Shown: piece by piece, positions 18,786 through 24,626 of the stretch | How positions within the stretch are numbered: the first letter of the stretch is position 1 | How the letters are laid out: each line of letters starts with the position of its first letter | Translations under genes and position numbers: made by a program | Notes under the pieces: generated by a model | What the model was told of the DNA's origin: nothing | Database searches by the model: none | Seen by the model: only the letters and a program-made list of their open reading frames with translations | Source: Deltaproteobacteria bacterium | Lineage (GTDB): Bacteria > Desulfobacterota > Dissulfuribacteria > Dissulfuribacterales > QOAL01 | NCBI GenBank assembly: GCA_027067775.1 | Contig: JAMOVK010000077.1 | Coordinates: forward strand, 1-38,633 | Reading direction: 5' to 3' | DNA length: 38,633 bases

Positions 18786-19079
18786 GTGGGGCAAAAGTTT
18801 AAATTAAAGTTTCTTGGGCATGTCTATGAATTAATGGGAGAGGATCCTGATATTGATTTACAGGAAGTGGCTACATACGTAGAGAAAAAGGCAGCTGACA
18901 TTGAAAACAGGTATCCAGGACTGTCCCCCTCAAGACAGATGATCCTTATCGCCATGAGCCTTGGAAAGGAATATTTTTATCTGAAAAAGAATCTTGACAG
19001 GCTCGAAGCCAATCTTGATTCAAAGCTTAAAATGCTTAATGAAAAATTAGACACTCAATTGATGAAAAAAAAAGATTGA
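18786..19079 (+). CDS. zapA: Cell division protein ZapA
   Basis: 97 aa. N-terminal beta domain QKFKLKFLGHVYELMGEDPD, then VATYVEKKAADIENRYPGLSPSRQMILIAMSLGKEYF and a coiled-coil tail, the ZapA layout. ZapA binds FtsZ and bundles filaments at mid-cell. The start is GTG 18786 (GTGGGGCAAAAG), 15 nt after zapB. The zapA-6S RNA neighbourhood downstream is found in many proteobacteria. Confidence 0.92.
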   Translation: MGQKFKLKFLGHVYELMGEDPDIDLQEVATYVEKKAADIENRYPGLSPSRQMILIAMSLGKEYFYLKKNLDRLEANLDSKLKMLNEKLDTQLMKKKD

Positions 19080-19084
19080 TATGT

Positions 19085-19090
19085 TATAAT
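19085..19090 (+). promoter_or_regulatory. -10 box of the 6S RNA promoter
   Basis: Perfect TATAAT right after the zapA stop, ~12-16 nt before the predicted 6S 5' end. No convincing -35 at 17 nt; TTGATG at 19059-19064 is 20 nt upstream. Confidence 0.55.
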
Positions 19091-19100
19091 TTTTATTAAA

Positions 19101-19280
19101 GCATTCCCTGCTGTGTACGTGGCAAGCTGAAAGTTTGTTGAGCCAACACCCCGTACAAGGGAGTCGTTTCTCCGTGGAAGAGTGGAAAAGGAGAACAGCC
19201 TTTTCCGTTGGAAGCGGATATGACACCCACCTGAGTTCGCTCAGGTTCAATAGACTCAGCTTCACGGCACGGCGGGGTTT
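19101..19280 (+). ncRNA. ssrS: 6S RNA (SsrS)
   Basis: Regulatory RNA that mimics an open promoter and sequesters housekeeping RNA polymerase. A closing helix pairs CCCTGCTGTG (19106-19115) with CACGGCACGGCGGGG (pairing to 19277), continuing as AAGCTGA/TCAGCTT. A large asymmetric internal region follows, with the 3'-side hairpin ACCTGAG-TTCG-CTCAGGT flanked by GACACCC and TTCAATAGAC, as in known 6S RNAs. The terminal arm includes GGAAAAGG/CCTTTTCC. Position between zapA and the next gene is a classical 6S location. Ends are estimated to within several bases. Confidence 0.85.
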
Positions 19281-19292
19281 TTGAGTTGCTAT

Positions 19293-19311
19293 AACCCCGT
19301 CCGGGTTTTTT
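19293..19311 (+). terminator. Terminator after 6S RNA
   Basis: AACCC-CGTCC-GGGTT followed by TTTT, 13 nt after the 6S closing helix. Short stem but well placed. Confidence 0.65.
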
Positions 19312-19315
19312 ATAT

Positions 19316-19507
19316 AAACGGATAACGGTGAGAATACAAAGAGATAAAATCTGCAAACAGCGGATTCATGATATACGGGAACATCTACCAAACAGGTGTC
19401 TGATAGAGAATTTGGTTATGACTTGCCATAAAACATGACTTTGTGTTTTGGGTGACAGGCAAGTAGACAATGTCCAGCCGGTAATTTCCACCAGTTATCC
19501 GTTTTTT
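19316..19507 (+). ncRNA. Candidate structured RNA of unknown family between 6S RNA and rny
   Basis: AAACGGATAAC (19316-19326) pairs perfectly over 11 bp with GTTATCCGTTT (19494-19504); GGTG/CACC adds 4 bp beyond a bulged A, and the 3' strand runs into a six-T tract. Inside are AATCTGC-AAACA-GCGGATT and ACTTGCC...GGCAAGT capped by AAAACA/TGTTTT. No convincing ORF runs through it. It may be an independent small RNA ending in its own terminator, or a leader of rny mRNA. I do not recognise the family. Confidence 0.55.
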
Positions 19508-19558
19508 CATAAAGTAGTGAGATGGGGTGTGGCACTATAACCTATATGGAGGCCACAC

Positions 19559-21121
19559 ATGATAGACATTACAACCATTTTTCTTCTTATCCTATTCGCT
19601 GCAATTGGAGGCGCTGTAGGCTTTGGAGTGGCTAAGGTCCTATTTTCCAAGAGGCATAGCGAAGAACGGGATGAGGCTATCAGGCTCAAGAAAGATGCTG
19701 AGGCAGAGGCCAAACGACTGCTTAAAGAGGCTAGGGTTCAGGCAAAGGAAGAGGCCTTGCAACTCAAAAAGGAGGCAGAGCGCGAGGTTGAAGAACGTCA
19801 AGGTGAACTCAGAAGTCGCGAAAAGAGGCTGCTTCAGCGTGAGCAACAAATTGAGAAGAAAAAGGAACTGGTAGATAACAAAGAGATAGAGCTTCTTGAA
19901 AAGGAAAAGAGTATTCAGGCAACACAGAGCAGACTCAAAGAAAGGGAGAGGGAAATAGACAGTCTGGTCAATGCTCAAAGGGAGAGGCTTGAGCAAATAT
20001 CTGGGATGTCAAAAGAAGAGGCCAAGGAACAGCTTCTTAAAAGCTTTGAAGCCGAGGTCAGGCAGGAAGCAGGTAAACTTCTCAGAAAAGTGGAGCAGGA
20101 AGCGAAAGACGTGGCAGATAAGAGGGCCCGGGAGATTATCGCCCTTGCCATTGCGCGATATGCAGGTGAATATGTTGCTGAACGGACTGTTTCTGTAGTG
20201 GCTTTACCTAATGAGGAGATGAAAGGGCGTATCATAGGTAGAGAGGGTCGGAATATAAAGGCTATAGAGGCTGCAACGGGTATTGATATTATAATTGACG
20301 ATACTCCCGAGGCGGTCTTGTTATCTGGTTTTAATCCGGTTCGCAGGGAAGTGGCCCGAGTGGCACTTGAAAGGCTTGTGCTTGATGGAAGGATTCATCC
20401 CGCCAGGATTGAAGAGGTGGTCCGCAAGGTAGAAAAAGAAATAGATGCAGCCATCAGGGAGGCAGGGGAACAGGCCACTTTCGATGTAGGGGTTTACGGT
20501 ATTCATCCAGAACTGGTCAAGCTTCTAGGAAAACTCAAGTTCCGTACCAGCTATGCCCAGAATGTCTTGCAACATTCTGTAGAGGTGGCCTTTCTCTGTG
20601 GTATTATGGCTGCAGAACTGGGCATAGACGTGAAAAAGGCAAAACGAGCCGGACTCCTTCACGACATAGGAAAGGCGGTTGACCACGAGGTGGAAGGTTC
20701 CCATGCCATTATCGGTGCTGATCTGGCAAAGAAATATGGTGAACCAAGGGACGTTGTTCATGCCATAGCAGCTCATCATGAAGACGTTAAACCAGAATCC
20801 GTCCTTGCGGTTTTGGTACAGGCGGCAGACGCCCTTTCTGGTGCAAGGCCTGGAGCCCGTCGAGAGATGCTTGAGAGCTATGTCAAGCGTCTAGAGGATC
20901 TGGAACGTATTGCAACGTCGTTTACCGGTGTTGAAAAGTCCTTTGCGATCCAGGCAGGGCGCGAGATAAGGATAGTTGTTAACAGCGAATCCATATCTGA
21001 TTCCGAGGCAGCCATGTTATGCAGGGATATTACCAAGAAGATAGAGAGCGAACTTACGTATCCTGGCCAGATCAAGGTTACTGTAATAAGGGAGACTAGG
21101 GCTGTTGACTACGCCAAGTAG
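19559..21121 (+). CDS. rny: Ribonuclease Y
   Basis: 520 aa membrane-anchored endoribonuclease that initiates mRNA decay. N-terminal TM helix ([20 protein letters not shown]), long charged coiled coil to about residue 200, KH domain ([20 protein letters not shown]), then the HD domain with [18 protein letters not shown] and [13 protein letters not shown], ending [13 protein letters not shown]. All family motifs are intact and length is standard. A TGGAGG site precedes ATG 19559. tyrS follows after 18 nt. Confidence 0.97.
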
Positions 21122-22395: not shown

Positions 22396-22812
22396 ATGAA
22401 TACTTGGTTAGGCAACGCTTTGGCAGCCCTGTTGTGTTGGGGTCTGTGGGCATTTTTCCCTAAGCTTTCTCTTGCAAGAATATCCCCGGCCAGTTCGGTT
22501 TTTTTTGAGGCATGCGGTGTCATGGCTACCAGTATAGTTGTGGTAATGCTTCTTGGCCCTGGTATTGACAGGGATTTTGAAGGTGCGTTATTTGCAATCC
22601 TGACCGGTATATTTGGTACGGTTGGTCTTTACTTTTTCTTTTGCGCCGTTAAGACCGGTCCCATTTCCGTTATATCTTCTCTTACCGCCCTTTATCCAGT
22701 GGTAACAGTAGTGTTGGCAATGATAGTGCTTCATGAAAGACTTGCCTTGAGGCAGATTTTTGGAGTGCTGCTGGCCCTGGTTGCAGCTGCCCTCCTGTCT
22801 TCCAAGGCTTAA
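22396..22812 (+). CDS. Half-size EamA/DMT-family transporter
   Basis: 138 aa, about one EamA repeat with roughly five hydrophobic segments: LGNALAALLCWGLWAFFPKL, then FEACGVMATSIVVVMLLGP, LFAILTGIFGTVGLYFFFCA, and the EamA-type end SSLTALYPVVTVVLAMIVLHERL ... QIFGVLLALVAAALL. Full DMT permeases have two such repeats (~300 aa), so this would work as a dimer, as small EamA proteins are thought to. Substrate unknown. No clear ribosome binding site before ATG 22396. Confidence 0.85.
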   Translation: MNTWLGNALAALLCWGLWAFFPKLSLARISPASSVFFEACGVMATSIVVVMLLGPGIDRDFEGALFAILTGIFGTVGLYFFFCAVKTGPISVISSLTALYPVVTVVLAMIVLHERLALRQIFGVLLALVAAALLSSKA

Positions 22813-22924
22813 AAGATTTCCTTGGTCAGGTGTTGGAAAACAATGTCATTTAAACCGTTTTATATTATGGGCCTACTTGAAAAGCGTTTCGATAGTTCAA
22901 AAGATAAAGACCGTCTTGCATATA

Positions 22925-23013
22925 TGGTGCCGAAGGGGAGATTCGAACTCCCACGGGGATAACCCCCACTAGATCCTGAATCTAGCGCGTCTACCAATTC
23001 CGCCACTTCGGCA
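22925..23013 (-). tRNA. tRNA-Leu (anticodon CAG)
   Basis: Read on the minus strand: acceptor TGCCGAAG pairs with CTTCGGCA, followed by encoded CCA. The D arm is GCGGAATTGGTAGACGC, the anticodon stem-loop CTAGA-TTCAGGA-TCTAG has CAG at 34-36, the long variable arm TGGGGGTTATCCCCG marks a class II tRNA, and the T arm contains GTTCGAATC. It decodes CUG. It is antisense to the flanking plus-strand genes. Confidence 0.97.
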
Positions 23014-24080: not shown

Positions 24081-24626
24081 ATGAAGCGTGAGATACGCAA
24101 ATCAATGAAGAACACTCCTGAGAAAAAGAAAACAAAAAATTTTTCGGGAATGCGGTTTTTAATCACTTATTTGCTTCTAATGGGCGGCCTTGCCCTTGCC
24201 CTGAGTCTTGAGGCAGTCAAAAAGATTATAGATATAAACGGGCTTTATACCCGTTTTATAGTAAAGGCTACAGCGTTGGTACTTGAACCACTTGGGCTTG
24301 TAAAAGGGATACAGGGCTCTGTTATTCATCTCAGAGGAATATCTTTGGATGTCAAATTCGGATGTAACGGGCTTGAAGCTTTCCTTATTTATATGGTGGC
24401 AATTCTTGCCTTCCCTGCCCCATGGAAGACCAGAGTGATGGGAATTGCATGGGGGTTTGTTATCATCCAACTTTTCAACATATTAAGGATAGCAGCGCTT
24501 GGTTATTGCGGGGTACATTTTGCCCATTTTTTTCATGTGTTTCATATTTACATAGCCCAGGGCATCATGATTGCCGTTGCCTTTGTACTTTTCCTTTTTT
24601 GGCTTGACCGTGCAGTTAAAGAATAG
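24081..24626 (+). CDS. xrtH: Exosortase H (XrtH-like transpeptidase)
   Basis: 181 aa integral membrane cysteine protease/transpeptidase that processes proteins with a C-terminal PEP-CTERM-like sorting signal. The catalytic triad of the exosortase family is visible: Cys95 in KFGCNGLEAF, Arg136 in LFNILRIAALG and His155 in FHVFHIYIAQG. Several TM segments surround them. The small size and the following membrane gene match the XrtH subtype, which in databases is tied to IPTLxxWG-CTERM targets; no such target is in the window. Start may be ATG 24081 or 24105; neither has a strong ribosome binding site. 34 nt after ribF. Confidence 0.85.
   Translation: MKREIRKSMKNTPEKKKTKNFSGMRFLITYLLLMGGLALALSLEAVKKIIDINGLYTRFIVKATALVLEPLGLVKGIQGSVIHLRGISLDVKFGCNGLEAFLIYMVAILAFPAPWKTRVMGIAWGFVIIQLFNILRIAALGYCGVHFAHFFHVFHIYIAQGIMIAVAFVLFLFWLDRAVKE

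Follow-up and report, generated by a model that had tools for sequence, protein, structure and literature searches.

The 6S RNA and rny locus

The window, i.e. the whole stretch of 38,633 nucleotides that was analysed, carries ATP synthase genes, a nucleotidyltransferase gene, zapB, zapA, 6S RNA, a spacer, rny and tyrS; its closest records are metagenome-assembled Deltaproteobacteria. The spacer between 6S and rny measures 276 nt and is gene-free. RNase Y is the enzyme that initiates mRNA decay in many bacteria, and the rny product, with its RNase_Y_N, KH and HD domains, is itself an RNase, a trait of the class of autoregulatory RNase leaders. When the window was scanned with 4227 Rfam models (release 15), nothing scored above the gathering threshold except 6S and one tRNA, and at E<=10 no match, even weak, overlapped positions 19288-19558. 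According to this covariance search, proposed as a check in the first-pass annotation of the sequence, the spacer fits no Rfam family. The tRNA gene (RF00005) lies at 22928-23012 on the - strand, opposite to the surrounding genes, and overlaps a mechanically called + strand open reading frame at 22760-22972. A membrane protein encoded at 24081-24626 contains a CNGLEAFLIYMVAILAFPAPW stretch, which we take to resemble exosortases.

The first-pass annotation had placed a structured RNA at 19316-19507. The helix on which these limits were based is present; as an extent they are too narrow, as the conserved element begins at 19288 and extends to the rny start codon (ATG at 19559). The features of the locus are as follows.

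19062-19090, + strand: promoter-like site before 6S with the extended -10 TGTTATAAT; TTGATATGTTATAAT recurs in most genomes of the genus
19102-19282, + strand: 6S RNA (Rfam RF00013, 74.8 bits against a gathering score of 46.4)
19288-19301, + strand: 5' strand of helix P1, GCTATAACCCCGTC, A19294 bulged, 5 nt past 6S; near-invariant in most genomes of the order, covarying with 19521-19533
19293-19307, + strand: terminator-like hairpin AACCC-CGTCC-GGGTT with a T-rich tail (local fold), overlapping the 5' strand of P1
19316-19330, + strand: 5' strand of helix P2, the closing helix of the first-pass annotation (letters of the window, fold, covariation)
19348-19366, + strand: hairpin P3, AATCTGC/GCGGATT (19348-19354/19360-19366), kept in the genus and the nearest genera only
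19421-19464, + strand: hairpin P4, ACTTGCC/GGCAAGT (19421-19427/19458-19464), seen by eye
19489-19504, + strand: 3' strand of P2, followed by a T-run that is not conserved (letters, spacers of relatives, covariation)
19521-19533, + strand: 3' strand of P1, GATGGGGTGTGGC (conserved block, covariation)
19527-19558, + strand: P0, ribosome-binding-site hairpin GTGTGGC/GCCACAC around the Shine-Dalgarno sequence GGAGG (19548-19552) (RNAalifold, covariance model R1)
19559-21121, + strand: rny, encoding RNase Y, the gene that would be under control (Pfam RNase_Y_N, KH_1, HD)

Covariation of P2 and P1 across the order

The long-range helix first noticed in this region is present as described. Its 11-bp part pairs AAACGGATAAC (19316-19326) with GTTATCCGTTT (19494-19504), all 11 pairs being Watson-Crick, and past the bulged A19493 a 4-bp extension follows (GGTG/CACC, 19327-19330/19489-19492), P2 closing about 190 nt. 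T19505-19507 stand directly after the 3' strand. Both internal hairpins, P3 and P4, are likewise in place. The statement that such a helix is unlikely by chance holds only at the level of about 1%: of 300 dinucleotide shuffles, 3 contained a perfect helix of 11 bp with a span of 120-260 nt. Compared with such shuffles, the fold of the region is somewhat better (z -2.8), as is that of its complement (z -3.8). Since the helix is only moderately unusual in a single sequence, P2 was established by comparison with relatives.

The order was represented by 46 genomes, in which matches to 6S and rny were gathered. Spacers were inspected in 40-odd of these genomes, plus G042 and G036. A second, weaker 6S-like match was seen elsewhere in genomes G027, G034, G043 and G021. 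Spacer length in the order ranges from 183 to 578 nt, and the middle is variable in both sequence and length. Two blocks are conserved: GGCTATAACCCCGTCTGGGTT-TATATA, found 1-11 nt after 6S in nearly every genome, and GATGGGGTGTGGC...GGAGG.GCCAC(A/C)C just before the rny start. Within P2, both-side changes affect 8 of the 9 core pairs across the order, and none of 500 shuffles reached any of the five covariation measures. Pairs change for instance from C-G to A-U in G019 and G029 and to U-A in G041, and in the f10 genomes the helix reads AAGCGAATTTGG/CCAAATTCGCTT. Many families contribute to the set of 23 distinct nine-pair strands, in which 85% of cells are paired; this percentage is biased upward because the registers were placed by eye, and the fair contrast is with the slid registers, which pair 18-51%. 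A mechanical register for P2 had been misplaced in several genomes and was replaced by the hand-set ones. When the 5' and 3' regions of P2 were swapped mechanically between 21 genera, a z of -6.0 was obtained, against -2.1 for the control with a reversed 5' strand, which gauges the effect of composition. Gene order kept around a helix that is neither conserved nor covarying was the outcome that the first-pass annotation had held against its own proposal; the opposite was found.

P1 links the first conserved block with the nucleotides that precede the Shine-Dalgarno sequence of rny (GCUAUA-A-CCCCGUC with GAUGGGGUGUGGC, one A bulged), and P2 is nested within the larger element that P1 closes. 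An ungapped alignment of 17 distinct rows shows 94.5% of the P1 cells paired and four pairs altered on both sides; the covariation score was matched by 1 of 500 shuffles, and slid registers pair 40-52%. Depending on lineage, U-A, A-U or G-C forms the outermost pair. Divergent genomes seemingly keep P1 in other letters, as judged by eye (AAUCCCU/AGGGGUU in G028, CAAC-A-ACC/GGUGUUG in G042, AUCCU/GGGGAU in G023). The swap test for P1 (z -3.2) is not counted as evidence because it is confounded by base composition, its reversed control giving -3.0. A family-only alignment, A1, was too narrow a sample: its joint covariation score for P1, P2 and P3 was reached by 9 of 500 shuffles, and it is uninformative on P1 because the P1 columns never vary there. 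From the family genomes RNAalifold recovered P1, P2, P3 and P0 unprompted, and the minimum-energy fold of the window's own sequence holds P1, P2 and P0 together. The inner hairpins are less widely shared. P3 reads TCTGC/GCAGA followed by TATAT in relatives, and by eye P4 is partly swapped for other pairs within the genus, e.g. CTCCGCC/GGGCGGA in G006.

The 3' strand of P1 doubles as the 5' arm of P0; the 3' arm of this hairpin includes part of the Shine-Dalgarno sequence and in the genus ends at the ATG. The covariance model R1, built on this ribosome-binding-site part, gave one match per genome, always at the rny start, in 36 of the 46 genomes of the order, and zero matches in the genomes of other orders within a 297-genome sample of the phylum. 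By these matches, the element in its R1 form is tied to rny and to the order; in G024 and G036 it could not be recognised. The structure is fixed to a single downstream gene on the same strand and reaches its ribosome-binding site, as in cis-acting leaders. On average, the predicted P0 pairs fall from 7.2 to 3.3 when the 5' strand of P1 is present. A switch of Shine-Dalgarno accessibility was considered and dropped: P0 is displaced in these predictions, yet by family the predicted accessibility of full and truncated leaders does not differ significantly (0.35 versus 0.32, p 0.85). Folding by itself thus gives no support to an ON/OFF switch of translation.

An rny leader and its alternatives

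Besides the site at 19062-19090, no promoter-like site was found within 18950-19700, hence none between 6S and rny. One candidate there, the TATATA that ends the first conserved block, was rejected: its start would fall inside P2 and leave P1 untranscribed, which contradicts the covariation. As both strands of P1 and both strands of P2 covary, they should lie on one RNA, which would put the start of the rny transcript upstream of 19288. Since no promoter was found between the two genes, transcription probably continues from 6S into rny. In two genomes, insertions of about 96 nt (G010) and 157 nt (G021) part 6S from the first block, which remains with the rny leader; together with the covariation, these insertions favour a leader that is probably reached by such read-through. 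We therefore consider it rather likely that the region is a structured 5' leader of the rny mRNA with P1, P2 and P0, and not a free-standing gene. Of the two possibilities raised in the first-pass annotation, a leader of rny is the one that gains support, since the structure includes the rny ribosome-binding site and sits only at rny. Some observations go against it: no P1 is recognisable in G024 and G036, the P2 interior differs in sequence between families, unlike a riboswitch aptamer, and the terminator-like hairpin stands between 6S and the leader, so that 6S could end there. This hairpin and P1 are mutually exclusive because they overlap in the 5' strand of P1. In several families its tail is not T-rich; the palindrome is conserved. 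It may be a 6S terminator, at which some 6S transcripts would end, an attenuator or a DNA operator.

The other first-pass possibility, a new sRNA, would be a separate trans-acting molecule of about 19310-19507 that ends at the 3' strand of P2 and the T-run. The region has a compact fold with internal hairpins, and in the window's genome P2 does end in TTTTTT. The six T residues are thus present, but not as a shared terminator, the relatives reading TTTCTAG, TTTCACA or TTTAAAT, which speaks against a free sRNA that carries its own terminator. An own promoter combined with an own conserved terminator, the signature of a stand-alone sRNA, was not found between 6S and rny. The interior is moreover free to change between families, and the conserved structure extends via P1 into the ribosome-binding site of rny. 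A separate sRNA is therefore unlikely, although one is still conceivable because a processed fragment of the leader could also act in trans. Somewhat less probable again is a device for 6S processing, in which an RNase would cut the linker and P1 and P2 would thereby set the 3' end of 6S while hardly affecting rny. That P1 begins 1-11 nt past 6S in almost all genomes and that 6S and rny are neighbours throughout the phylum fit this idea; against it, P1 stays with rny in G010 and G021, where insertions split it from 6S, and P1 is linked to the Shine-Dalgarno hairpin, for which 6S maturation has no need.

We regard a ligand-binding riboswitch or an RNA thermometer acting on rny as improbable to the same degree. 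The ribosome-binding site could take part in mutually exclusive pairings, but the conserved multi-helix core that an aptamer requires was not found across lineages: the families share only P1, P2 and P0, and the interior of P2 is family-specific. It is very improbable that the palindromes have no function as RNA and are DNA operators or remnants of conserved sequence. The P1 strands are near-invariant in most genera, hence little informative, and AACCC..GGGTT is a DNA palindrome; however, P2 covaries strongly although its strands are distant, and P1 covaries too. We also dropped the idea that 6S acts as an antisense RNA to the rny leader. In the genus, GCCAACACCCC of 6S matches GGGGTGTGGC, but 6S of the g6 genomes reads GCCAACTCTC and the arm in the leader stays the same.

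Possible role in RNase Y control

From its structure, position and exclusivity to rny, the leader probably sets RNase Y synthesis, and the spacer is probably a previously undescribed region for the control of this enzyme. The following steps can be proposed. The short linker at 19283-19287 would be cut, separating 6S from the rny transcript. P1 and P2 would hold the distal strand next to the ribosome-binding site, where they would compete with P0 or stack on it. A cleavage that removes the 5' strand would then leave P0 free to close and the new 5' end open to decay. The likeliest cutter would be RNase Y, which would give autoregulatory feedback. Autoregulation is the likeliest purpose of the leader, a proposal that we make tentatively.

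Structured leaders of RNase genes are known. The RNase E 5' UTR element rne5 (RF00040) forms a structured leader on the mRNA of the main endonuclease that initiates decay, and serves feedback; its likeness to the present leader is one of function, there being no Rfam match and the enzyme, fold and lineage being different. In Escherichia coli, rnc and pnp are governed via a stem-loop in their own leader, which RNase III cuts. A leader stem-loop of an RNase gene is common to these cases and ours, whereas the rnc and pnp stems are short and local and have no link with 6S. In E. coli, ssrS (6S) is followed by ygfA. At both loci 6S lies directly upstream of the next gene on the same strand; here, that gene is rny and the spacer has a conserved structure of its own. 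To our knowledge, RNase Y control has hardly been studied outside Bacillus and its relatives.

A precedent for control of RNase Y by its own cleavage, as proposed in the first-pass annotation, comes from Bacillus subtilis, where the enzyme cuts the 5' UTR and the start of the coding sequence of its own mRNA, limiting its own synthesis, in contrast to RNase E control of the rne5 type (PMC10303841). RNase Y of B. subtilis favours AU-rich single strands beside structure (PMC10303841), and the linkers between 6S, P1 and P2 are AU-rich and fit this preference. Both rny genes have a long 5' UTR with structure at the ribosome-binding site; that of B. subtilis differs in its length of about 160 nt and its AU-rich 5' part, and neither a 6S neighbour nor a long-range helix like P1 or P2 is described in the part of the source used here (PMC10303841). 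In the open-access literature searched, we found no report of a 6S-rny linkage or of a Deltaproteobacterial rny leader. In the former Deltaproteobacteria, the covarying helix between the border of 6S and the ribosome-binding site of rny offers a direct, testable element for the control of RNase Y.

The leader also brought a phylum-wide linkage to attention. When the phylum was sampled evenly, 6S and rny were both found in 72 genomes, and in 68 of these 6S immediately precedes rny on the same strand, with a gap of 123-1228 nt (median 377 nt). A broader reading, which we think doubtful, is that 6S and RNase Y form one transcription unit conserved throughout the phylum, the spacer being a lineage-specific switch whose cutting would mature 6S and set the RNase Y level. 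If so, transcription, through 6S as an inhibitor of RNA polymerase, and mRNA decay would be coupled via one precursor RNA. In the Desulfurivibrio/Desulfobulbaceae-like records L045-L064, a different, strongly conserved spacer of about 400 nt was observed at a distance of about 400-500 nt upstream of rny. No Rfam match was obtained in the members scanned (L045, L049 and L056). With its long predicted closing helix AUCAAGAGGAUGCGAGAACGG/CCGUUUUUGUUUCCUCCUGAU, inner paired motifs and a large covariation term, this spacer is possibly another new structured RNA.
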